Shown: positions 5,566 through 52,110 of the stretch, one piece after another
How the letters are laid out: the number at the start of each line of letters is the position of its first letter
Numbering within the stretch: the first letter of the stretch is position 1
Source of the DNA: Vibrio splendidus
GTDB lineage: Bacteria; Pseudomonadota; Gammaproteobacteria; Enterobacterales; Vibrionaceae
Assembly: GCF_024347615.1 (NCBI RefSeq)
Contig: NZ_AP025509.1
Coordinates: 1,240,001-1,304,000, forward strand
Reading direction: 5' to 3'
Length of the DNA: 64,000 nucleotides
Notes under the pieces: model-generated
Told to the model about the DNA's origin: nothing
What the model saw: only the letters and a program-made list of their open reading frames with translations
The model's database searches: none
Position numbers and translations under genes: made by a program

Positions 5566-6468
5566 TTATTGATAAAAGAACAGAGATATTCCAGCAAGGG
5601 CAGCAAGCGTCCCGATGACGCTTTGCTTTGACACCTTCTCCCCTTTAATCGCATAAATCACCAAAATAAAGACCGGACTGGTCGCTATCAATGTTTGTGC
5701 AATCGCAGGGTTCGCATTCTTCAATGCCACTTGCTGAAGCCACAAAGCCAAAAAGGTTCCGACAAAGATTGCCCCTAATAACCAAAGTTTATCGAGCTTG
5801 GTCATTTCCCATAAATCTCTTTTTATCGATGAATACGGCTTCTTTTCAACAAAAGGGATAATCAGCATTACTGCAAACACACCTATCGTGAGACGAATCA
5901 GTGCACCTAATAATGGTGGGATATCACCCGCCACTAACGCGTAATGAGAAATCACCACACCGGATGCCTGACAAACACTCGCCACAAGCCCATAACCAAT
6001 GCCACCCCACTGCGCTTTATCATTCGATTCACCGCTCGCCGATTTTGATGGCTGGAAGACAACGAAGGTCACCGCTAGTGTTGTAATCACGACACCGAGC
6101 CAACTTTGTACTGTCAATACAGCACCAAGAAACATGAGTGCCAGCACGCCAGAAAGAGGCGGTGCTAAAGATTCCAGTAACAGCGTCTTATTGGCACCGA
6201 TTCTTTTCAATGCCGCAAAATAGGCGCTATCTCCAATCGCAATGCCAATCACACCTGAAATTGCCAATATCAGAAAATGGTTGGTACTCAATTCAAATTC
6301 AGGCATCGGTATTAACGGCATGACTAACAGCATCATGCCAGAAGCGACTACACCCTTAACAATGTTCAATTGCATCGCAGAGAAGCGATGTCCAAATTGC
6401 CCATAAATCCATGTCGCACACGCCCACACAATCGCAGCACCAATAGCCGCCAATTCACCTATATACAT
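5566..6468 (-). CDS. EamA/DMT-family permease
   Basis: 300-residue inner-membrane protein with ten hydrophobic segments in two repeated halves, as in the drug/metabolite transporter superfamily. The N-terminal half contains GVIGIAIGDSAYFAALKRIGA and the C-terminal half contains QVALKNANPAIAQTLIATSPVFI, both typical EamA repeat ends. The substrate cannot be told from sequence; relatives move amino acids, nucleosides or other small metabolites. It ends with a stop 73 bases from the convergent cyclase gene and has its own promoter in 6469-6700. ATG start at 6468. Confidence 0.88.
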   Translation of the reverse strand: MYIGELAAIGAAIVWACATWIYGQFGHRFSAMQLNIVKGVVASGMMLLVMPLIPMPEFELSTNHFLILAISGVIGIAIGDSAYFAALKRIGANKTLLLESLAPPLSGVLALMFLGAVLTVQSWLGVVITTLAVTFVVFQPSKSASGESNDKAQWGGIGYGLVASVCQASGVVISHYALVAGDIPPLLGALIRLTIGVFAVMLIIPFVEKKPYSSIKRDLWEMTKLDKLWLLGAIFVGTFLALWLQQVALKNANPAIAQTLIATSPVFILVIYAIKGEKVSKQSVIGTLAALAGISLFFYQ

Positions 6469-7114: not shown

Positions 7115-8244
7115 TGGATTTACTACTGATAATGACCTACGCGGCACTTTGTATCACTATTTTCAAAGTATTTAATATCCCACTAAACAAATGGACAGTG
7201 CCTACCGCAGTGCTCGGTGGTGTGGTCATCGTAGGAACATTGATCCTATTAATGAACTACAACCATCCTTTCACACAACTTGGCAACCAAGTTTACTCAA
7301 CGACTCCAATTGTTTCAGGCGTTAGAGGTAAAGTCATTGAGGTTCCTGTTGAGGCGAATTCTCCTTTAAAGAAAGGAGACATCCTCTTTAAAATTGACCC
7401 TATCCCTTTTGAAGCAGAAGTCGCTAAGCTCGAAGCGAAAGTAAAAGAAGCAAGCCAAGGAGCACTTGGGCTTGAATCTCAAGTTGCTGAAGCTGAAGCT
7501 GCTAAAATCAAAGCGATTGCAGAAAGAGACAAAGCGCAACGCGAGTTTTCTCGTTATAAGCGTGGCTTTGAAAGTGGTGCGTTCACCGAACAACAATTGG
7601 ATACTCGTAGACAAGCTTACAAGGCATCGGAAGCTGCAGTAAAAGTAGCAGAAGCAAGTCAACAACAAGCTCAGATTGCTCTAAATTCTGAAATTGGTGG
7701 CGAGAACACCGCAGTGGCAGGATTACTTGCAGACTTACGTAAGGCTCAATTCAACCTTGACCAAACGGTCGTGAGAGCACCAACGGATGGATATGTTACA
7801 CAACTAGCACTGCGTCCAGGCGTAATGGCTGTACCGCTGCCTCTTGCTCCTGTCATGACATTTGTCCATACGGAAGAAAAATACTACATCGCAGCATTCA
7901 GACAAAACTCATTGCAACGACTGCATCCTGGTTTCGAAGCTGAATTTTTATTCAGAGCACTACCAGGCAAGATTTTCAAAGGACGCATTGATGAAATAAT
8001 CCCAGCTATTGGTGAGAGTCAAATTCAAGCGCGCGGGACACTTATTGGTACCAATGCACTTCGTACTAATGGACGTGTATTTGCTAAAATGACCATCACT
8101 GATGACCTGTCTGACTACCATTTACCTATGGGTACCGCGGTTGAAGTTGCCGTTTATTCTGACAGCTTCACTCACGTGTCTATCATGCGTAAGGTCCTTA
8201 TTCGCATGAAGAGCTGGCAAAACTATCTATATCTAGACCACTAA
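7114..8244 (+). CDS. yiaV: YiaV-like HlyD-family membrane fusion protein
   Basis: 376 residues: N-terminal membrane anchors (two hydrophobic segments within residues 1-50), a biotinyl-lipoyl-like half motif (VSGVRGKVIEVPVEAN), a long alpha-helical hairpin rich in Ala, Glu and Lys (about 100-215), the second lipoyl half (VRAPTDGYVTQLALRPG) and a beta-barrel domain. The C-terminal SIMRKVLIRMKSWQNYLYLD is shared with E. coli YiaV. HlyD proteins bridge inner-membrane pumps to outer-membrane channels, but no pump or TolC gene lies nearby. An AGGAGG site at 7101 precedes the overlapping ATG. A similar pair lies at 36894-38438. Confidence 0.92.
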   Translation: MDLLLIMTYAALCITIFKVFNIPLNKWTVPTAVLGGVVIVGTLILLMNYNHPFTQLGNQVYSTTPIVSGVRGKVIEVPVEANSPLKKGDILFKIDPIPFEAEVAKLEAKVKEASQGALGLESQVAEAEAAKIKAIAERDKAQREFSRYKRGFESGAFTEQQLDTRRQAYKASEAAVKVAEASQQQAQIALNSEIGGENTAVAGLLADLRKAQFNLDQTVVRAPTDGYVTQLALRPGVMAVPLPLAPVMTFVHTEEKYYIAAFRQNSLQRLHPGFEAEFLFRALPGKIFKGRIDEIIPAIGESQIQARGTLIGTNALRTNGRVFAKMTITDDLSDYHLPMGTAVEVAVYSDSFTHVSIMRKVLIRMKSWQNYLYLDH

Positions 8245-42039: not shown

Positions 42040-42642
42040 TTAGTTCAGTTGGCCGTATATGTAAGCCAGTTCAGCAACCGTTTTAGCAGAAAATTTCTTC
42101 ATTAAACTCGCTCGGTGTACTTCTACCGTTCTCATCGCGATACATAACTCATCAGCGATTTTTTGGTTACGTTTTCCGTCAATGATCTGCTTAAGAATAT
42201 CGATTTCTCGGTCAGTCAACGATGCATACGCTTGGCGGTAAACATTCATGTGTAAATGCTTTTCAGAAGCGTCCAAACCTTGTTTGATCGCCTCAGCTAA
42301 CTCACCGCCTTTAACTGGCTTTTGGAAGAAGTTCACCGCGCCGGCTTGTAAGGCTTCAACCGCCATTGGCACATCACCGTGACCCGTCAGGTAAATCACC
42401 GACAGTGGGCTCTGCGCCTTCACCATCAACTCATGAACTTGTTGCCCTCTCATTTCAGGCATTCGGCTGTCTAACACCACGCAACCTGGCGCACTCAAAT
42501 CCACTGAGTCCAGAAAGCTCGGGCCATCTTCATAGGCTGACACCGTAAAATCATGCTCTTCCAATAAGAACACCAATGAGTCACGCATCGACTCATCGTC
42601 ATCAACCACATAGACCGGCAACGTTTGATGAAGTTCAGACAT
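42040..42642 (-). CDS. ttrR: Response regulator TtrR
   Basis: 200 residues: receiver domain (DDDE near residue 15, phospho-Asp in VVLDSRMPEM, Thr in YLTGHGD, Lys in FFQKPVK) and a LuxR/FixJ-type HTH (LTDREIDILKQIIDGKRNQK). It forms a two-component pair with the sensor kinase 11 bases upstream and should activate the tetrathionate genes. A candidate operator is at 44701-44714 and 50325-50338. Confidence 0.94.
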   Translation of the reverse strand: MSELHQTLPVYVVDDDESMRDSLVFLLEEHDFTVSAYEDGPSFLDSVDLSAPGCVVLDSRMPEMRGQQVHELMVKAQSPLSVIYLTGHGDVPMAVEALQAGAVNFFQKPVKGGELAEAIKQGLDASEKHLHMNVYRQAYASLTDREIDILKQIIDGKRNQKIADELCIAMRTVEVHRASLMKKFSAKTVAELAYIYGQLN

Positions 42643-42653
42643 AACAAGATTCC

Positions 42654-44543
42654 TTATGAATCATTTGAAATAGAGGAAGGTAGTGTCACCGCGACATGAC
42701 AACCATGAGGAGTCAGTGAAGTAATGCTCATTTTGCCACTGTGGTCTTCAATCACATCTTGGCAAATCGCAAGCCCTAATCCCAAGCCGTTTTCTTTGCT
42801 GCTCACAAAGGCTTGAGTGACTTGTTGCTCGGTAAAATCTAAGCCCGTGCCGTTATCGATAACCGACAGCATCATTTTATCCGGTTGATACTCGGTAATC
42901 ACTTTAATTGTCGATGGTTCGTTATTTTTGTTACCAATATCAGACGTAGCGCTTTGTTCGCGATGCATCTGAGCATTACACGCATCAGTCGCATTGTTGA
43001 TCAAATTTACAACTACCTGCTGCAATCCGACAGGGTCAACATATAGCGTGATAGGTTTACCCACAACATAACGTTCAATGGTTATCTTGTGTTTCTCTAA
43101 TCTAAACTGCAGTAGCTCGATGGTATCTGTAAGAAGCACTTCTATATCAATTTGAGATTTATCTGATGAGCGTTTTTTGATCATGTTTCTTAGGCGCTGG
43201 ATGATCGCATCAGCACGGTCCACTTGAGACTGTATCTTCTCAAATACAGGCTCTATGTCAGTCAGCGGTTTGTTCTTCGAAATCCGCAGTAAACCACCTT
43301 CGCTATAATTCCGAATAGCTGCCAAAGGCTGATTAATCTCGTGTGCCAAGCTACTTCCCAGTTCACCAACTACCGCGATTCGTTGTGAGTGCTCTAGCTG
43401 TTCACTCTTACTTTTCAGCTTATACAGCGTCGCTTCTAGTTGCTTTTTGCTGCGACTGAATTTGTATTCTAGCCAGAAGTGGTAAGCATTCAGAGACACG
43501 ACAAGAATAAAGAACGCCCATGCCCACTGTTGATTGTACTTGAGCCAGATTAACGCTTCTTTCCACCAAGGTTGTTGCAGTGGATGCATGTCGAGTTGTT
43601 GATATAGCTTATCGATCGACAGCAGGCTTGTCGGTGACGTCCAGCCCGATGCATTCGCTGCAATGGCGGGCGCACTGCTTTTTGGCATAGCAAATAACAC
43701 CTGACTCATTTGTTTCGCCAGTGCCGAAGACGCTCGCTCTGTTTTGGCAAACGACCAGTTAGGATACAACGGTGTAGACACCTGACATCGGAACCCTTCT
43801 GGTGCTTGATTCTCGATAACACGATATTGACCCGCCACCAGCAAACCTTCGCTGATCATGCTCTCGACCAAACACGCAGGCACCACCGCAGCTTCAATGT
43901 GCCCTTCACGCAGTTGATACAAGCTAGCATCAATAGGGAAACCTAAGAACTGAGTATTAGAGAAAAAGTGATTGGGGTTGAGCCCTTGTTGCATCACTTG
44001 GTAACGCATAGTGAGGTAACCACCAAAAGCATTTTCAGATACTGCCGCAATCGGCTTACCGCTAAGTTGTTCGAGAGAGATATAAGGCGACATTCTTCTC
44101 ACCACCAAGGCAGAACCAATGCTACGTGTATTACTGGTGCCTTGAGCTTCAAAGTTATGACTGGTCATGGTTGCCATCCAAGAAAGCGCATACTGGCGTC
44201 CTAATCGAACCGCCTGACCGGGGTTGGTGATGACAAAATCAACAGTGACATCTTTTACCGCTTCGGCCATCTCTTCCAAGTTGAAAGGCTTGAGAACAAA
44301 GTATTTTCCGGGAATGCGCTCCGACAGCCAATCCATTGTCGGCTGCCAACGCTGCTGAGCGGAAAGCTTACCTCGAGTCGCCAACACGCCAACCTCTATG
44401 ATTTGCTCAGACTCAACAGTGCTTGTCGTTGCAATCTCTTGCTCCGATTGAGCGGCTAAACAGATTCCTGCGGTTAAGCTCAACCAACAAAGGCCAACGA
44501 TTGATATTAGGTTTCTGACTGTCACTGAAATCTCTTTCTCCAA
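42654..44543 (-). CDS. ttrS: Tetrathionate sensor histidine kinase TtrS
   Basis: 629 residues. Signal-like N-terminus, a periplasmic PhnD-type solute-binding domain (about 48-315; VGVLATRGKLSAQQRWQPTM), one membrane segment (WAWAFFILVVSLNAYHFWL), then a kinase core with phospho-His in SSLAHEINQPLAAIRNYSEG, N box NLINNATDAC and G boxes DNGTGLDF and GLGLGLAI. It detects tetrathionate in the periplasm. Operon ttrSR, divergent from ttrBCA. Confidence 0.94.
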   Translation of the reverse strand: MEKEISVTVRNLISIVGLCWLSLTAGICLAAQSEQEIATTSTVESEQIIEVGVLATRGKLSAQQRWQPTMDWLSERIPGKYFVLKPFNLEEMAEAVKDVTVDFVITNPGQAVRLGRQYALSWMATMTSHNFEAQGTSNTRSIGSALVVRRMSPYISLEQLSGKPIAAVSENAFGGYLTMRYQVMQQGLNPNHFFSNTQFLGFPIDASLYQLREGHIEAAVVPACLVESMISEGLLVAGQYRVIENQAPEGFRCQVSTPLYPNWSFAKTERASSALAKQMSQVLFAMPKSSAPAIAANASGWTSPTSLLSIDKLYQQLDMHPLQQPWWKEALIWLKYNQQWAWAFFILVVSLNAYHFWLEYKFSRSKKQLEATLYKLKSKSEQLEHSQRIAVVGELGSSLAHEINQPLAAIRNYSEGGLLRISKNKPLTDIEPVFEKIQSQVDRADAIIQRLRNMIKKRSSDKSQIDIEVLLTDTIELLQFRLEKHKITIERYVVGKPITLYVDPVGLQQVVVNLINNATDACNAQMHREQSATSDIGNKNNEPSTIKVITEYQPDKMMLSVIDNGTGLDFTEQQVTQAFVSSKENGLGLGLAICQDVIEDHSGKMSITSLTPHGCHVAVTLPSSISNDS

Positions 44544-44672: not shown

Positions 44673-44686
44673 TTGTTCTAGATCAA
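44673..44686. promoter_or_regulatory. Putative FNR site of the ttr promoter region
   Basis: TTGTT-ctag-ATCAA, nine of ten core positions of the FNR site TTGAT-N4-ATCAA. A second, overlapping inverted repeat, GATCAA-ct-TTGATC, follows at 44681-44694. Oxygen control through FNR is known for Salmonella ttr. Confidence 0.55.
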
Positions 44687-44700
44687 CTTTGATCTGGGTA

Positions 44701-44714
44701 TGTGGAAATCCACA
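44701..44714. promoter_or_regulatory. Palindrome upstream of ttrB, candidate TtrR site
   Basis: TGTGGA-AA-TCCACA, 68 bases before the ttrB ATG. The same word, with ATA continuing to its right, occurs upstream of tsdB at 50325. Confidence 0.65.
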
Positions 44715-44782
44715 ATACCCCGTGAACGGTCAAAAACTGACAATGAGCCTAACAGATCGAATACCCATTTATAGGTACCTCT

Positions 44783-45619
44783 ATGGACTCATTGAAAAGA
44801 CGGTTTCTTAGCCAATTCGGCAAGGTTTCCGCTGGTGCTGCGCTCATTCCCATTGCCGGAATCAACACCGCAGTCGCAAGCACAGCCATTCGTAATAACA
44901 ACCAACCTGACCGCAAAGGCGAAATAGGCAAACGCTACGCCATGGCGATTGATTTACGTAAGTGCGTTGGCTGTCAGGCGTGCACTGTTGGCTGTAGCGT
45001 TGAAAACCAAGCACCAATTGGCCAGTTCAGAACCACCGTAAAACAGTATGAAGTCTCCCTTGATGATGGTTCGACGGCTCAACAAGACGTGAAATCATTC
45101 ATGTTACCTCGCCTATGTAATCACTGTGACAACGCCCCCTGCATCAAGGTTTGTCCTGTTCAAGCGACCTTCCAGCGTGAAGATGGGATAGTGATGGTCG
45201 ACAACGAACGCTGCGTAGCCTGTGCTTACTGCGTTCAAGCTTGTCCTTACGATGCTCGTTTCATTAATAACGACACCCTTACCGCAGACAAATGTACCTT
45301 CTGCGCACACCGCCTCGAAGACGGCTTACTGCCTGCTTGTGTAGAAACCTGTGTCGGTGGCGCGCGTGTCATTGGCGACCTTAAAGATCCAAACAGCGAG
45401 ATCAACCGTCTGCTCAATGAAAACCAATACGACATCAAGGTGCTTAAGCCAGAGCAGAATACCAACCCCCATGTTTTCTATATCGGCATGAACGAGCGAT
45501 TCGTTAGCCACATTGAAGGCCAACCTGCGATTTATGATCCAGCCGCCATCGATAACTCATCCTCTAGCAAACAAGAATTGGCAATCGCGACACAAGGCAA
45601 ACAAGGAGAGACAGCATGA
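44783..45619 (+). CDS. ttrB: Tetrathionate reductase iron-sulfur subunit TtrB
   Basis: 278 residues with a twin-arginine signal (KRRFLSQFGKVSAGAALIP). Four ferredoxin-like Cys groups: CVGCQACTVGCS, CNHCDNAPCIKVCP, CVACAYCVQACP and CTFCAHR...CVETC, giving four [4Fe-4S] clusters. It carries electrons from TtrC to TtrA in the periplasm. Its end overlaps the ttrC start (ATGA). Confidence 0.96.
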   Translation: MDSLKRRFLSQFGKVSAGAALIPIAGINTAVASTAIRNNNQPDRKGEIGKRYAMAIDLRKCVGCQACTVGCSVENQAPIGQFRTTVKQYEVSLDDGSTAQQDVKSFMLPRLCNHCDNAPCIKVCPVQATFQREDGIVMVDNERCVACAYCVQACPYDARFINNDTLTADKCTFCAHRLEDGLLPACVETCVGGARVIGDLKDPNSEINRLLNENQYDIKVLKPEQNTNPHVFYIGMNERFVSHIEGQPAIYDPAAIDNSSSSKQELAIATQGKQGETA

Positions 45620-46764
45620 ATATCACTGAGGTGTTAGTTCCCGCTCAAGAGATCGCTTGGCTACCGTGGGCGGTTCAGTATTTCTTCTACATAGGTTCGG
45701 CTTACGCGGCGGCGATTCTGTTTTTGATTGCCCTGATATTTAAAAATTCAACCAGTCATCAATTTCGTGCAGCCCTTGTGCTTGTGATGGCAATCGGCGC
45801 GATTGTTGGGCCATTAGCGCTTACTGGTGACTTGCATCAACCCGGACGTGCGTGGCATTTCTATGCTCACATCACGCCTTGGTCATGGATGTCATTAGGC
45901 TCTTTGTTTCTACCTCTATTCTCTGGTCTGGCTGTCGCGACGGCTTGGGTTTACCTGCGTGACGACATCGCACAGCTTAAACAAAGTGAAAACCCATTTC
46001 TAAAACGTTTGTCTTGGCTGACGCTAGGTAAATGGCAAATATCATCAAAGCTGATGATTGCACTCGCTGCTGTGACGGCTATTTCGGGCCTAAGCATCGC
46101 GCTTTATACAGGTGCCGAGATTGCGATTTTGGCGAGCCGACCGCTTTGGCATCAACCGGCTTCTCCACTACTTTGGTTCACGACCGCATTCTTTGCTGCT
46201 ACGGGTTTAACGCTGTTGATTTGGGCTCTGCTGCCTTCAAGCAAACCAAGCTTAAAACCAACAGACCTAGCTCTGATACAAAGAACCATTACCTTAACGG
46301 GTGGCCTTGCCATCATTCTCACGTCGATTTGGGCATCTAACCATGGTCACTTCAGCCTGTATGAGAACGACGCTTGGGGCATCAATTTAGGCATCATGAC
46401 CACCAGCATTTTGCTGTGCATGATCTTGGTTCTACCACTGCAACGCCTATCGCAAAGTAAGCTAGGAATTATCTGTGTTGCGCTTGCGACCATAGTTTCT
46501 GCATGGGCGGTACGTTGGGTCACCATGATGGAAGTTCAAACCATTCCCCGTTTTGATGTGGGTGCATTCCCTTATGAACTGCCGATGGGTAGCGCAGGAT
46601 TACTCGGCATTGTTGGTATGTGTGGCCTTTGGCTAGCACTTGCGTTGTTCGCCTCTGAGATCGTGTCTGCTGGATCGTCAAGATCAACTGGCTCTGCGAC
46701 AAAGACAGCATCTAAGCCAAACCAAAACACATCATCACCACTTAACCGCTCACATAGCTTGTAG
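45616..46764 (+). CDS. ttrC: Tetrathionate reductase membrane subunit TtrC
   Basis: 382 residues, about nine membrane segments, NrfD/PsrC family. It oxidises membrane quinol and anchors TtrA and TtrB. Characteristic stretch: LTGDLHQPGRAWHFYAHITP, then SWMSLGSLFLPLFSGLAV. The C-terminal 30 residues are polar and Ser/Thr-rich. Overlaps ttrB by four bases and precedes ttrA by 14. Confidence 0.95.
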   Translation: MNITEVLVPAQEIAWLPWAVQYFFYIGSAYAAAILFLIALIFKNSTSHQFRAALVLVMAIGAIVGPLALTGDLHQPGRAWHFYAHITPWSWMSLGSLFLPLFSGLAVATAWVYLRDDIAQLKQSENPFLKRLSWLTLGKWQISSKLMIALAAVTAISGLSIALYTGAEIAILASRPLWHQPASPLLWFTTAFFAATGLTLLIWALLPSSKPSLKPTDLALIQRTITLTGGLAIILTSIWASNHGHFSLYENDAWGINLGIMTTSILLCMILVLPLQRLSQSKLGIICVALATIVSAWAVRWVTMMEVQTIPRFDVGAFPYELPMGSAGLLGIVGMCGLWLALALFASEIVSAGSSRSTGSATKTASKPNQNTSSPLNRSHSL

Positions 46765-46778
46765 TCTGAGGAATCATC

Positions 46779-49700
46779 ATGGATAACAAACGTCGTCAAT
46801 TTTTGAAAACAGGCCTTGCTGCCGGTGGTGTTGGAGCTTTTGCTGCAGGTTATGCGACAACCACAAAACACATGGTTCACGGTGCTATCGATGGCACTGC
46901 CGGTAAGAAAACCAATCACATCCACCACGGTAATTCGTTAGAGACGGAATACAGTGTCGATGAGCAAGGTAAGATCTCGCCAAATCCAAACCAACGTGTT
47001 GCACCCTCTATGTGTTTTGGTTGCTGGACACTGTGTGGATTGCGTGTACGTATCGATAATCGCAATGACGAGATCTTACGTATCTCAGGTAACCCGTACC
47101 ACCCGCTATCAAGTGATCAGCAGATCCCGTTCAAAACACCGGTAAAAGATGCCTACATTGGCTTGTCTGGTGAATCAGGCATCAATAATCGCTCGACAGC
47201 CTGCGCCCGTGGTAATGGCATGTTGGAGATTCAAAACAGCCCATACCGAATCACTCAACCGCTCAAACGCGTTGGTAAGCGTGGTGAAGGCAAGTGGGAA
47301 CCAATCAGCTACGAACAACTTATCTCTGAGATCACCGAGGGTGGTGACTTATTCGGTGAAGGTGAAGTTGAGGGCTTACGATCGATTCGTGACATCGAAA
47401 CACCACTCGATCCAAACAACCCTGAATACGGACCAAAAGCCAACCAACTGCTTGTGACCAATGCCGGTAATGAAGGCCGTGACGACATCTTGAAGCGCTT
47501 TGCATTTAACAGCTACGGCACACGCAACTTTGGTCACCACGGCTCTTACTGTGGTTACGCGTTCCGTGCGGGTTCAGGTGCGATCATGAACGATCTAGAC
47601 AAGTTCTCGCACTTAAAACCAGATTTCAACAACGCAGAGTTCATTCTTTTCATCGGTATGTCTCCGGCTCAAGCGGGTAACCCGTTTAAGCGTCAAGCAA
47701 GACAGCTGGCTGAGGCTCGTACCAACGGAAAACTCAGCTACACCATAGTGACACCGAGCCTTCCAGCAGGATCGTCAAGCCTTGCGGCGGGCGATCGCAA
47801 TAACTGGCTACCGATCAAACCGGGCACCGATTCAGCATTAGTTCTGGGTATGATCCAATGGATCATCGAGAACCAACGATACAATCACGACTTCTTGTCT
47901 CGCCCAAGCGCACAAGCGATGCAAAAAGCAGGCACCACACACTGGTGTAATGCATCTCACCTTGTGATCAGTGACGAGTCGCACCCACAAAATGGGCGTA
48001 TGCTTCGTGCATCGGATATAGGGTTGCTAGAAACAGGCGAACCGATGTCTGACGATGACGGATTTATCGCACTTAATGTGACAACGTCACTGTTATCATC
48101 ACATATTCAGGTGAATGAAGCGGCTCTGTTCGTCGATCAAGACGTAGAAATCGATGGTCAGACTGTTCGTGTTAAGTCTTCTCTACAAAGATTGAAGGAA
48201 GAAGCCTTCAAATATGACCTTGCATACTACAGTGAGCAGTGTGAAATCCCACAAGACCAGATTATTGCGTTGGCAAAACGCTTCACCAGCTACGGTACAA
48301 AAGCAGTCGTGGATACTCACGGTGGCAACATGCACACCAACGGCTTCTATAACTCGTTCTCTATTCTGATGCTGAATGCTCTGATCGGTAACATCAACGC
48401 AAAAGGCGGCGCGATGGCGAAAGCGGGCGGCTACCCAACTTCCGTTGCTGGCCCACGTTACGACTTTACCAAGTTCAAGGGTAAGACTAAGCCTCAAGGT
48501 GTGTTCTTGTCCCGCAGCAAGTTCCCGTATCACAAGACCAGCGAATACAAACGTCGCGTTGCCGCAGGCGAGTCACCTTACCCGACTCGCGCGCCGTGGT
48601 ACCCAATCTCAGCGCCGCTTTTAACCGAGCACTTATCAGCTGCGATTGATGGCTATCCTTACCGCGCAAAGGCATGGATCAACCACATGGCGAACCCACT
48701 TTATGGTGTTCCGGGTTTAGACAACTTGCTGGGTGAAAAGCTTAAGGATCCAAAACAGCTTGGCTTGATCGTGTCTATCGATGCCTTCATCAATGAAACG
48801 ACTGCCTTATCGGATTACCTAGTGCCAGACACGGTGACCTACGAAAGCTGGGGCATGGCAACCCCGTGGCATGGCGTCGCGACCAAAGCGATCACCGCTC
48901 GTTGGCCGATTGTTGAGCCTAAAACCTCACGCACTCAAGACGGGCGCGCCATCAACCTAGAGAACTTCTTTATTGATCTGGCGAAAACACTGGGCTTAGG
49001 TGGCTTTGGCGATAACGTAATCAAAGACAACCAAGGTAACTGGCACGGTATTCATAGCGCTGAAGACTTCTACCTGCGCTCAGCGGCTAACTTAGCATTT
49101 GCAAAAGGCGGTGTGCCGAATGTAGACGCGGAAGATATTGTTTGGTCTGGTCTAGAGCGCCTTATACCTGTAATGAACAAAACGCTTAAACCAGAAGAGA
49201 TGCTCAAAGTGGCGTATATCTTTGCGCGTGGCGGTCGTTTCGAAGACGCAACCAATGCCTACACCAATGAAACTATGAAGTACAAATGGACCAAACCTTT
49301 GGCTATCTGGAATGAAAAGCTGGGTACCTCTCGCAACACCATCAGTGGCGAACAGTACATGGGTTGCCCGACATGGTATCCACAAAAACTGGCAGACGGC
49401 ACGCCTTTGGCTAAACAGTTCCCAGTAACAGAGTGGCCATTTACGCTAACTAACTTCAAGTCCAATATTCACAGTGCGGTGTCTAACTTGTCACCACGTT
49501 TAGAGTCGATCAAAGGCGTGAACCCAGTTTACATTCACCCGCAAGACGCCTCTTCTGCTGGCATCAAAACTGGTGACGTATTTGCCATTGAAACACCGAG
49601 TTCAACCACACACGCGTTGGCGATGGTGATTGATGGCATCAAACAAGGCACATTAGGCTTTGAACACGGCTTTGGACACAAAGAGCTCGGTGAGCGTGCA

Positions 49701-49871
49701 CACTGGATTGGTGACACACAACAACCAGTGAAGATGAAGTCGAACGATGGCGTTAACATCAATGATATAGGCTTGATTGACCCGACGAGAGAAGGCAAAG
49801 GCGTCATGTTGGATTGGGTTGTGGGGGCAGCAGCAAGGCAAGCGCTTCCGGCTAAGATCTACAAGGTCTAG
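46779..49871 (+). CDS. ttrA: Tetrathionate reductase catalytic subunit TtrA
   Basis: 1030 residues, molybdopterin oxidoreductase family. Twin-arginine signal NKRRQFLKTGLAAGG. The [4Fe-4S] site is C-x2-C-x3-C (MCFGCWTLCGLRVR) and a fourth Cys in STACARGNGML. It binds two molybdopterin guanine dinucleotides and reduces tetrathionate to two thiosulfate in the periplasm. The length is similar to Salmonella TtrA (about 1020). Third gene of ttrBCA, closed by a terminator at 49946. Confidence 0.96.
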   Translation: MDNKRRQFLKTGLAAGGVGAFAAGYATTTKHMVHGAIDGTAGKKTNHIHHGNSLETEYSVDEQGKISPNPNQRVAPSMCFGCWTLCGLRVRIDNRNDEILRISGNPYHPLSSDQQIPFKTPVKDAYIGLSGESGINNRSTACARGNGMLEIQNSPYRITQPLKRVGKRGEGKWEPISYEQLISEITEGGDLFGEGEVEGLRSIRDIETPLDPNNPEYGPKANQLLVTNAGNEGRDDILKRFAFNSYGTRNFGHHGSYCGYAFRAGSGAIMNDLDKFSHLKPDFNNAEFILFIGMSPAQAGNPFKRQARQLAEARTNGKLSYTIVTPSLPAGSSSLAAGDRNNWLPIKPGTDSALVLGMIQWIIENQRYNHDFLSRPSAQAMQKAGTTHWCNASHLVISDESHPQNGRMLRASDIGLLETGEPMSDDDGFIALNVTTSLLSSHIQVNEAALFVDQDVEIDGQTVRVKSSLQRLKEEAFKYDLAYYSEQCEIPQDQIIALAKRFTSYGTKAVVDTHGGNMHTNGFYNSFSILMLNALIGNINAKGGAMAKAGGYPTSVAGPRYDFTKFKGKTKPQGVFLSRSKFPYHKTSEYKRRVAAGESPYPTRAPWYPISAPLLTEHLSAAIDGYPYRAKAWINHMANPLYGVPGLDNLLGEKLKDPKQLGLIVSIDAFINETTALSDYLVPDTVTYESWGMATPWHGVATKAITARWPIVEPKTSRTQDGRAINLENFFIDLAKTLGLGGFGDNVIKDNQGNWHGIHSAEDFYLRSAANLAFAKGGVPNVDAEDIVWSGLERLIPVMNKTLKPEEMLKVAYIFARGGRFEDATNAYTNETMKYKWTKPLAIWNEKLGTSRNTISGEQYMGCPTWYPQKLADGTPLAKQFPVTEWPFTLTNFKSNIHSAVSNLSPRLESIKGVNPVYIHPQDASSAGIKTGDVFAIETPSSTTHALAMVIDGIKQGTLGFEHGFGHKELGERAHWIGDTQQPVKMKSNDGVNINDIGLIDPTREGKGVMLDWVVGAAARQALPAKIYKV

Positions 49872-49945
49872 CTTAAACTCAGCAAGCTATAACTTAATCA
49901 CTGATTCAAAACACTTCCTTATCTGATTTGCAGATGAGAACACAA

Positions 49946-49983
49946 CAGGGCAACTTCGTCATTCGAGGTTGCTCTGCTTTTTC
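49946..49983 (+). terminator. Rho-independent terminator of ttrBCA
   Basis: 13-bp stem with two G-U pairs (49946-49958 with 49964-49976), then CTTTTTC. Confidence 0.88.
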
Positions 49984-50014
49984 GTCCCCTTGATCTAGAA
50001 AAGCACCCTATTTG

Positions 50015-50085
50015 GATAAACGTCCAATCTACATAAAGTACCCAATCTAGATAAAGCATCCGCTCTAGATAGAGTAATCAACCCA
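50015..50085. repeat. Degenerate 17-18-bp tandem repeat
   Basis: Four imperfect copies of GATAAAG-tacccaatcta type (starts 50015, 50032, 50050, 50068), each ending in or near TCTA. The surrounding 49984-50324 has no gene; a small TGAGGT/ACCTCA inverted repeat lies near 50278-50306. Confidence 0.6.
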
Positions 50086-50324
50086 AAGCCATTAGGTAAT
50101 CTTCATTTCACCACAACTTTTTTAGCCCGCCTCCATAAAGCAGCTATGCTTATACAATCGGTGCCATAAAAGAGCCTTAACAAGCAGTTATACCGAGGCG
50201 AACATGGCAGTTCCCTTGCATTTCATAAACGGCAGTTGGATCAACCTATCGAAGTTCACATCAATACCATTATGGTAACTGAGGTTATTAATGTGAGACT
50301 CACCTCAAGTTCCAAGTGAATTAA

Positions 50325-50338
50325 TGTGGAAATCCACA
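50325..50338. promoter_or_regulatory. Palindrome upstream of tsdB, candidate TtrR site
   Basis: TGTGGA-AA-TCCACA, 59 bases before the tsdB ATG. The 18 bases ATGTGGAAATCCACAATA are identical to those upstream of ttrB, at nearly the same distance from the start codon. Confidence 0.65.
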
Positions 50339-50397
50339 ATAGCGCGAACAACCAATTATGTCGAAAATGCGTGCATTACAACCAATAGCGACGCCTC

Positions 50398-51039
50398 ATG
50401 ACTAAGCTGACAATTAAAACTCAAACTCTAACGCTTTGCATCGCTGCTCTAGGAAGCCTTTCTTTATCCGCTTTTGCACAAGCAGCACCCAATCCAATGC
50501 CAGAAGCCGCAGAAACTTGTAGTGGCTGCCATCAAGCCGACGGTAAAGGCATGCCCAACATTGCCCCTATGCTTGCAGGGCTCAATGCTGACTATCTAGA
50601 GCATCAACTGGTTCTGTTCTCAAGTGGTGAGCGTCAAAGCGCGATCATGAAGGGAATGGCTGACGGTGTATCTGATCCCGCTGTTCGTCGTGAGGTCGCA
50701 GAATACTTTGCATCACTGCCTTCATACGAATTTACCGATTTAGAGCAGCGCGGCTCACAGGCTGATATCGATAACCCCTATCGTAAACTTGTATTCCAAG
50801 GCGATTGGGATAGAAACATTCCAGCCTGTGCAACCTGTCATGGGCCAAGCGGTATGGGCGTAGACAAATTCCCGCGCCTAGCAAGCCAGCATGCCGACTA
50901 CATTCAAACTCAGCTCAACGCCTGGAAAAATGGCACTCGTAAGGGTGATGATTTGAACATGATGGGCAACATCGCAGGCAAGTTGACCGACGATGAGATC
51001 AAAAACCTGTCTTACTACTTCGCCTCTTTCCGATACTAA
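50398..51039 (+). CDS. tsdB: Diheme cytochrome c4-like TsdB
   Basis: 213 residues. Signal peptide ending near SAFAQA, then two c-type haem sites: CSGCH (TCSGCHQADGKGMPNIAP) and CATCH (ACATCHGPSGMG), in the two-lobed cytochrome c4 layout. It is predicted to exchange electrons with TsdA, nine bases downstream. TsdB-TsdA pairs are known in other proteobacteria. The promoter palindrome matches that of ttrB. Confidence 0.82.
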   Translation: MTKLTIKTQTLTLCIAALGSLSLSAFAQAAPNPMPEAAETCSGCHQADGKGMPNIAPMLAGLNADYLEHQLVLFSSGERQSAIMKGMADGVSDPAVRREVAEYFASLPSYEFTDLEQRGSQADIDNPYRKLVFQGDWDRNIPACATCHGPSGMGVDKFPRLASQHADYIQTQLNAWKNGTRKGDDLNMMGNIAGKLTDDEIKNLSYYFASFRY

Positions 51040-51048
51040 AGGGCTCGC

Positions 51049-52110
51049 ATGAAAACATTACTTTTAATTACCGCAACCCTTGCCTCTGGAATCGCTTATG
51101 CCGAAGCTGAGTTGCCCGATCGCCAAACCGAACTGCCAGCCGTTGAGAAGCCTCAAGACAACAAATATCTGGTGCCACGAGACTTGGTTGATATCCCTGC
51201 TGGGGAATTTGGCGACAAAGTAAAATTGGGGTACTCGCTGTTTGTCGATTCACAACAGATGCGTGGTACGTTCGTAGGCAATGAACAAAACTGTGTAAAC
51301 TGTCACATGCAAGCGGGCATGAAGCCTAACGCAGCACCTCTTTGGGGTGCGTACATGGCCTACCCTGCGTATCGTTCCAAGAACGACAAGGTAAACAGCT
51401 ACGCAGAACGTATCCAAGGTTGCTTCACCTACTCAATGAATGGCCTACCACCGGCTGAGGGTTCAAAAGAAATGGTCGCACTAACGGCTTATTCATACTG
51501 GCTGGCGATGGGTGGAATCCTAGATAAGAACGGCATGCAAGACACGCCTGTCCCTGAGATCAGCGATGCTGATTTACAAGTTGGTGGTAAAGCTGAAAGC
51601 TTCCCTCTTCCTGAAGAGCTGTTAAGCAAATACCCAATCGATGAACGCAGTAAGCTTGCCGGTCGTGGCTACCCTAAGATTGCAAACCCTGAACAAGAGC
51701 CGTCAATCGCTCGTGGTGAAAAGGTTTACCAAACCAGCTGCCAAACCTGTCATGGTCAAAATGGCGAAGGCATTAAAGGGGCGGATGGTCGCTCATACCT
51801 ACCACCTCTTTGGGGCGAGAACTCGTTCAACTGGGGCGCAGGTATGCACCGTGTAAATACAGCAGCCTACTTCATCTACGAAAACATGCCGCTTGGAAAG
51901 AGCCAGCAACTTTCGATTCAAGATGCATGGGATGTGGCTGCGTTTGTGAATAGTCATGAACGCCCACAAGACCCACGATACAAGGGTGATGTTGCAGGTA
52001 ATGCTAAGCGTTACCACAACCACCAAGGTTATTATGGCAAAGAAGTCGACGGTAATGTACTGGGTTCAAAAGCCTACCCAAGTGGTAAAAAAGTGATTCA
52101 TGAGCATTGA
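51049..52110 (+). CDS. tsdA: Thiosulfate dehydrogenase/tetrathionate reductase TsdA
   Basis: 353 residues. Signal peptide MKTLLLITATLASGIAYAEA. Two haem sites: NCVNCHMQAG and CQTCHGQNGEG. The region typical of TsdA is present: APLWGAYMAYPAYRSK, then RIQGCFTYSMNG. Its Cys corresponds to the unusual Cys ligand of the catalytic haem, with an Arg four residues before, as in Allochromatium TsdA. The enzyme interconverts thiosulfate and tetrathionate; direction varies by species. Next to ttr, reduction is likely here, which is an inference. Confidence 0.86.
   Translation: MKTLLLITATLASGIAYAEAELPDRQTELPAVEKPQDNKYLVPRDLVDIPAGEFGDKVKLGYSLFVDSQQMRGTFVGNEQNCVNCHMQAGMKPNAAPLWGAYMAYPAYRSKNDKVNSYAERIQGCFTYSMNGLPPAEGSKEMVALTAYSYWLAMGGILDKNGMQDTPVPEISDADLQVGGKAESFPLPEELLSKYPIDERSKLAGRGYPKIANPEQEPSIARGEKVYQTSCQTCHGQNGEGIKGADGRSYLPPLWGENSFNWGAGMHRVNTAAYFIYENMPLGKSQQLSIQDAWDVAAFVNSHERPQDPRYKGDVAGNAKRYHNHQGYYGKEVDGNVLGSKAYPSGKKVIHEH

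Follow-up and report, generated by a model that had tools for sequence, protein, structure and literature searches.

A likely TtrR operator shared by ttrB and tsdB in Vibrio splendidus, and an FNR-like site upstream of ttrB

The window analysed here is a 64,000-nt (64-kb) stretch of Vibrio splendidus DNA (GCF_024347615.1, contig NZ_AP025509.1, positions 1,240,001 to 1,304,000) that carries the two-component system ttrSR, the tetrathionate reductase operon ttrBCA and the cytochrome genes tsdBA. We studied an 18-base word, ATGTGGAAATCCACAATA, that stands before both ttrB and tsdB and is most likely the operator of the response regulator TtrR. The elements and genes, in positions of the window, are as follows.

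44700..44717, + strand: predicted TtrR operator of ttrB, polar form ATGTGG-AAAT-CCACAATA, core GTGGAAATCCAC at 44702-44713, near -43.5 relative to the inferred transcription start
50324..50341, + strand: predicted TtrR operator of tsdB, the same 18-mer, core at 50326-50337
44673..44686, + strand: FNR-like site TTGTTCTAGATCAA, 15 bp upstream of the ttrB core and at about -71.5, agreeing by eye with 9 of 10 consensus positions
44739..44744, + strand: -10-like hexamer GACAAT of ttrB, 37 bases after the first core base
50363..50368, + strand: -10-like hexamer GAAAAT of tsdB, 37 bases after the first core base
42040..42642, - strand: ttrR, response regulator (receiver and LuxR/FixJ-type helix-turn-helix, HTH); best match NCBIfam tetrathio_RR at 203.6 bits, below the curated cut-off of 290; Pfam Response_reg and GerE
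42654..44543, - strand: ttrS, sensor kinase with a phosphonate-binding-type periplasmic domain; best match NCBIfam tetrathio_HK at 420.4 bits (cut-off 750); Pfam Phosphonate-bd, HisKA and HATPase_c; start codon uncertain
44783..45619, + strand: ttrB, iron-sulfur subunit of tetrathionate reductase; best match NCBIfam TtrB at 385.7 bits (cut-off 416)
45616..46764, + strand: ttrC, membrane subunit; best match NCBIfam TtrC at 227 bits (cut-off 314)
46779..49871, + strand: ttrA, molybdopterin catalytic subunit; best match NCBIfam TtrA at 1385.5 bits (cut-off 1750)
50398..51039, + strand: tsdB, cytochrome c; Pfam Cytochrom_C with two matched haem-domain stretches, NCBIfam cytochrome matches weak
51049..52110, + strand: tsdA, thiosulfate dehydrogenase-type cytochrome c; Pfam SoxA-TsdA_cyt-c and Cytochrom_C

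The name tsdB was assigned by position and by a study of V. parahaemolyticus (PMC11293645, PLoS Pathogens 2024; this paper and PMC5408782, 2017, are cited throughout for the portions of their text that were available). The TtrA loci of named species nearest to the window, at 98-99%, include those of V. crassostreae, V. splendidus and V. lentus (among the best 80 of 140 loci).

The two copies of the 18-mer share the + strand and their orientation relative to the next gene. The 12-bp core is an inverted repeat, GTGG-N4-CCAC, which ends 69 bases ahead of the ttrB ATG (44783) and 60 bases ahead of the tsdB ATG (50398). An earlier reading of the window, made from its letters alone (the sequence-only reading), had placed the word at these coordinates and about 60-70 bases before the two start codons, which is correct; of the perfect 14-bp palindrome it described, the perfect 6-bp inverted repeat TGTGGA-AA-TCCACA stands, but the central AA is not palindromic. 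It had noticed no third copy, and for exact matches this holds both in the window, where two further places carry 2 mismatches (4 matches in total versus 2.69 expected by chance), and in the whole genome (5,879,117 bases), where exact TGTGGANNTCCACA occurs only at the ttrB and tsdB sites. Allowing one mismatch, TGTGGANNTCCACA gave 12 places per strand in the genome, the two sites included, against 11 for the reversed control, and thus no excess. The longer polar pattern TATGTGGNNNNCCACAATA recovered the ttrB and tsdB sites alone at zero or one mismatch, and at two mismatches 8 further places versus 6 for the control. Within the window ATGTGGAAATCCACAATA is the sole 18-mer repeated more than 100 bases apart, and its half-site is the only one that recurs among 20 six-N2-six inverted repeats. 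Since some repeated 18-mer also arose in 5 of 40 simulated Markov sequences, repetition by itself is weak evidence and conservation has to decide.

The core has a published precedent. In V. parahaemolyticus GTGG-N4-CCAC has been named the ttrR box; there, as in the window, it stands before ttrB and tsdB and adjoins the promoter, and ttrRS, ttrBCA and tsdBA are adjacent. Gel shifts, lux fusions and quantitative reverse-transcription PCR (qRT-PCR) showed that TtrR binds the box and directly activates ttrBCA and tsdBA; deletion of the box led to loss of binding and reduced lux activity and qRT-PCR signal, and TtrRS is described as 'absolutely required' (PMC11293645). In the open-licence literature the phrase 'ttrR box' was found in that paper alone, and few other papers treat the subject. 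The view of the sequence-only reading that one regulator, TtrR, switches on both ttrB and tsdB is thus supported by the V. parahaemolyticus work and by the conservation described below, but it is not new, as the box had already been published and tested in a relative. A similar operator is found in the Shewanella halifaxensis phsA promoter, where ThsR acts at the 18-bp TATGTGGTTTACCACAAT, with the same core and TAT/AAT flanks as the window sites; mutation of either half abolishes thiosulfate activation (PMC5408782). That promoter differs in responding to thiosulfate via ThsSR and in carrying two direct copies separated by a CRP site, whereas each window promoter has one copy. The available text of PMC11293645 and PMC5408782 yielded none of the following features described here: the polar consensus with its flanks, the promoter geometry, the FNR-like site at ttrB alone, the flank rule and the S. 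baltica prediction.

Conservation was assessed in two sets of loci that come partly from the same genomes. The survey set draws on the family, where 97 of 296 genomes have a TtrR-like match at an expectation value (E) <=1e-40, and on the order, where 58 of 394 genomes have a TtrA match at E <=1e-150; we compared 100 of the 102 TtrR places other than the window's own (G291 and the second of G131 were left out) and 40 of the 45 TtrA places outside the family. The named-species set comprises the best 80 of 140 loci. Where a TtrR-like gene is present, a strict box precedes ttrB in 104/104 survey loci, the window among them, and in 60/63 named-species loci. Combined, and with some genomes shared between the sets, this amounts to 164/167 loci with the gene versus 1/20 without it: 1/5 in the survey (L131, on a contig that stops shortly past ttrS) and 0/15 among the named species, the 15 being, as we take it from their titles, Burkholderiales. 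The box tracks TtrR, nearly always present with it and absent without it except at the locus cut by the contig end. Beside a TtrR-like gene, tsdB likewise has the box in 50/51 survey and 19/19 named-species loci; at the single miss, L076, tsdB was matched from residue 83 onward and a box lies ~1.3 kb upstream of the extrapolated start. At 19 tsdBA or tsdA loci away from ttr, the 350 bases that precede the first gene contain no box (0/19). The boxless tsd locus L201 encodes a TsdA of 68% identity in a genome without a TtrR match, and the strict cores seen in L207, L212, L213 and L218 lie inside tsdB or further upstream or downstream and lack the conserved flanks. The sequence-only reading had named many unrelated genomic copies, or absence of the site before tsdB in relatives, as findings that would speak against it; copies show no excess over the control in the window's genome or in the 296 family genomes, and the tsdB box is kept as just described. 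Further regulon members were sought with the exact polar 18-mer, which occurs at 25 places outside ttr and tsd loci in the 296 genomes, versus 43 for the reversed control (the 25 were counted by hand, excluding a ttr remnant in G014). The window's own genome encodes a TtrR with a conserved HTH, in which the key recognition-helix residues are invariant. We put the probability that the two 18-mers are TtrR operators at about 0.92. Judged from sequence, it is very likely that in other vibrios too, and not in V. parahaemolyticus alone, one regulator governs the interconversion of thiosulfate and tetrathionate in both directions.

The similarity-weighted consensus of the sites, read in gene direction, is TAT-GTGG-AAAW-CCAC-AATA. 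The operator is therefore polar (TATGTGG-N4-CCAC-AATA), with TAT on the far side and AATA on the promoter side, and ATGTGG is found in 101/105 ttrB and 50/50 tsdB survey rows. It is because these flanks are both conserved and polar that the repeated word is longer than its inverted repeat. The distance to the promoter is also constrained: for a -10-like hexamer, +37 from the first core base was the best of 66 offsets at the 105 ttrB promoters (z score 4.7) and at the 50 tsdB promoters (z 2.9). At least 4 of 6 TATAAT positions agree at exactly +37 in 96/105 ttrB and 40/50 tsdB rows, and at +37 give or take one base in 105 and 45 rows, respectively. With a hexamer at this distance the centre of the core would fall near -43.5 and its AATA flank would coincide with the -35 region, so that the operator would hold a class II position at both promoters. 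Promoter class positions (class I/II) come from E. coli work; with FixJ-family regulators and FNR-type class I/II promoters the window would have in common a LuxR/FixJ HTH, an activator by -35 and a second site near -71.5, an architecture deduced here from the sequence. Looking towards ttrS instead, the best -10 offset was 33 (z 2.6) and +37 was outside the four best, which fits the weak effect of ttrR deletion on ttrS in V. parahaemolyticus (2.5-fold, versus 293-fold at the tsdBA promoter; PMC11293645). The same paper mentions boxes at three promoters. In our set we reject a separate ttrS box, since the 400 bases ahead of ttrB contain one strict box and no more in 105/105 boxed survey rows; 11 loci that seemed boxless between ttrS and ttrB all contain it (11/11), the extrapolated ttrS start having overrun the box. 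The single ttrS-ttrB box must also serve any autoregulation of ttrSR.

Only the ttrB promoter has a second conserved site. All 105 ttrB survey rows contain, within 150 bases upstream of the core, a site that agrees with at least 8 of the 10 positions of the FNR consensus TTGAT-N4-ATCAA, a score reached by a fraction of 0.11 of shuffled upstream sequences (simple letter shuffles, 20 per row). In 101/105 rows the best place is at offset -29, that is 15 bp from the core and centred near -71.5, and this one offset reaches 8/10 in 60/60 boxed named-species ttrB loci, which span Vibrio, Aliivibrio, Photobacterium, Moritella, Shewanella, Aeromonas and Serratia. Upstream of tsdB no FNR-like site was seen at offset -29 in 50 survey or 19 named-species rows, and 4/50 survey rows have one anywhere within 150 bases (weighted fraction 0.13 versus 0.10 in shuffled sequences). 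With a site at ttrB and none at tsdB, only the reductase appears to be gated by anoxia. The shared switch of the sequence-only reading hence survives in so far as both promoters carry the TtrR box, while the two may not switch identically. A CRP site at tsdB was also considered: 8/10 CRP positions agree in 26/50 rows, and in 21 of these at the single offset -34; similarity weighting brings the fraction to 0.19 (versus 0.07 shuffled), which suggests one close clade, and we do not claim it. At window positions 44680-44695 the FNR-like site is overlapped by a 7-bp inverted repeat, AGATCAA-CT-TTGATCT, which ends 6 bases before the TtrR core; it was seen in several close relatives and was absent from the more distant ttrB promoters viewed.

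These features can be joined in one mechanism. Tetrathionate would activate TtrS, which would phosphorylate TtrR; a TtrR dimer would then bind GTGG-N4-CCAC by the -35 region and recruit RNA polymerase at ttrBCA and tsdBA. Expression of the reductase would need tetrathionate together with low oxygen, and that of the thiosulfate-oxidising cytochromes tetrathionate only. Such oxygen gating of the reductase would limit a futile cycle, in that oxidation and reduction would not both run at full rate. In this scheme a single promoter module (FNR-like site at -71.5, polar operator at -43.5, fixed -10) would be present whole at ttrBCA and as its TtrR half at tsdBA, oxygen would decide whether the reductive reaction runs, and a flank base would separate the targets of a paralogous regulator described below. 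For the scheme as a whole we would offer only slightly better than even odds. If it is true, one tetrathionate sensor drives two opposite reactions. The oxygen logic of ttrB versus tsdB is testable.

Several observations weigh against these conclusions. Binding and activation were shown in V. parahaemolyticus (PMC11293645), and we infer them for V. splendidus. Many of the compared rows are close relatives, so that after similarity weighting the effective numbers are ~44-49 for ttrB and 17-18 for tsdB. Three named-species loci with a TtrR-like gene lack the strict box before ttrB: at L252 (Shewanella hanedai, TtrR 58% identical) GCGG-N4-CCAC stands at the expected place, and no other ttrB row whose TtrR exceeds 50% identity is without the strict core; L280 and L294 encode TtrR-like proteins of 35% identity. 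As to geometry, the tsdB peak (z 2.9) barely exceeds the runner-up (z 2.6, at +14 and inside the conserved flank), and in 10/50 tsdB promoters the hexamer at +37 agrees with TATAAT at three positions or fewer. The FNR-like site lies one or two bases off its usual offset in L150, L152, L153 and L155, and the case for its activity in Vibrio is built on sequence. Finally, ttrBCA is induced both in air and micro-aerobically in V. parahaemolyticus, from which freedom from FNR has been suggested (PMC11293645).

The last of these points is the basis of an alternative that concerns the FNR part alone: the TtrR operator would be the same, but in Vibrio the FNR-like site would have no activity, and ttrB and tsdB would respond alike. 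A promoter induced in air may still gain further under anoxia, so that the FNR-like site and the published suggestion are in a conflict that can be tested. The near-fixed offset of the site at ttrB and its lack at tsdB also argue against this alternative, as do the requirement for FNR in Salmonella and the fall in output when the S. baltica ttrB promoter is truncated into its FNR-like site (PMC5408782). V. parahaemolyticus is outside the compared named-species loci; the site of V. diabolicus (L257) scores 9/10. On balance we consider a working FNR site in Vibrio somewhat more probable than not, and an inactive one a lesser, though real, possibility.

A second alternative holds that the main protein at the box is not TtrR but a different regulator of the FixJ type, for example the TtrR-like paralogue 05905-05910 of V. 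parahaemolyticus. We took 31 of the compared loci to be paralogous TtrSR-like pairs, and 30 of these (all but L120) have a box between the kinase and the target operon. The core is the same GTGG-N4-CCAC, and in residues 134-196 of the HTH region R171, T172, E174 and R177 are invariant in the 100 TtrR and 30 paralogues compared, the recognition helices being almost identical. This shared helix fits both the common core and the finding that TtrR itself binds the paralogue's promoter in V. parahaemolyticus, where the paralogue in turn modestly raises ttrBCA (3.0-fold) and tsdBA (1.4-fold) expression (PMC11293645). The flanks, however, differ. The paralogue operator reads TATTGTGG-N4-CCAC-AATA, with symmetric flanks TATTGTGG...CCACAATA; TTGTGG occurs in 29/30 of its sites and ATGTGG in 0/30, as against the ATGTGG of the ttr and tsd sites, and the same difference is seen in 5/5 genomes in which both kinds of locus were compared (at G131, a sixth such genome, the comparison covers one of the two matches). 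The genome of the window, moreover, has one TtrR match at E <=1e-40, which is TtrR itself, and in V. parahaemolyticus the absolute requirement for TtrRS speaks against the paralogue as main binder. We therefore regard this alternative as very improbable, and TtrR as very probably the regulator that acts at the two window sites. A mere chance repeat without function, for all that simulated windows can hold one, is refuted by the occurrence of the box in 126 distinct ttrB and 52 distinct tsdB upstream sequences and by the published function of its core (PMC11293645).

The change of one flank base (TATGTGG versus TATTGTGG) may thus separate TtrR targets from those of the paralogue and, judged from the sites compared, may serve to tell the two regulators apart. 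In other respects the promoters are alike, with an FNR-like site at -29 in 29/30 paralogue loci, a -10 peak that faces the target operon, again at +37 (z 4.4), and at least 4 of 6 TATAAT positions there in 28/30. We considered whether the symmetric paralogue operator serves two divergent promoters. This was rejected on account of the target-side peak; on the kinase side the best offset was 65 (z 3.4), and +37 was outside the four best. The paralogue loci are 30 of those between L082 and L119 (for example L104:5468), and the system is divergent from the operon. At L104, the one locus so annotated, the target operon encodes by Pfam a rhodanese, an Fe-S flavoprotein, a CCG protein, a VTT protein, ABC transporter parts and a CDP-alcohol transferase.

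The same promoter layout bears on S. baltica, in which mapping of the TtrR operator was reported as inconclusive by its authors, who listed candidate repeats in PttrB at 187-207, 207-225 (TCCAC-N9-GTGGA) and 254-272 (PMC5408782). In L270 (S. oncorhynchi) and L136 the second and third of these repeats recur at the same mutual distance, the first as a near match, and GTGGA forms the left half of GTGGAAAACCAC. Combining the published coordinates with these two sequences predicts the S. baltica operator at PttrB 221-232, the FNR-like site at 192-205 and the -10 hexamer at 258-263, all covered by the 85-bp minimal promoter (185-269). S. baltica TtrR would thereby gain a candidate operator, and its promoter, like that of ttrB in the window, would have the FNR-like site and then the box at the same spacing; tsdBA, which is part of the present comparison, was outside the scope of that study (PMC5408782).

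Some loci appear to be in decay. L049 (G216) has lost most of ttrBCA but retains both boxes and tsdBA; tsdBA was not found at L027, and L039 has a tsdA remnant only. L220 (G014) has partial ttr genes and a box, with no TtrR match in the stretch. Finally, at L074:8310 a divergent TsdA-like cytochrome (open reading frame 7223-8239, - strand, 35% identity) has its own ATGTGGATTTCCACAATAG with TAAAAT at +37, and is apparently a separately recruited target of the TsdA type.

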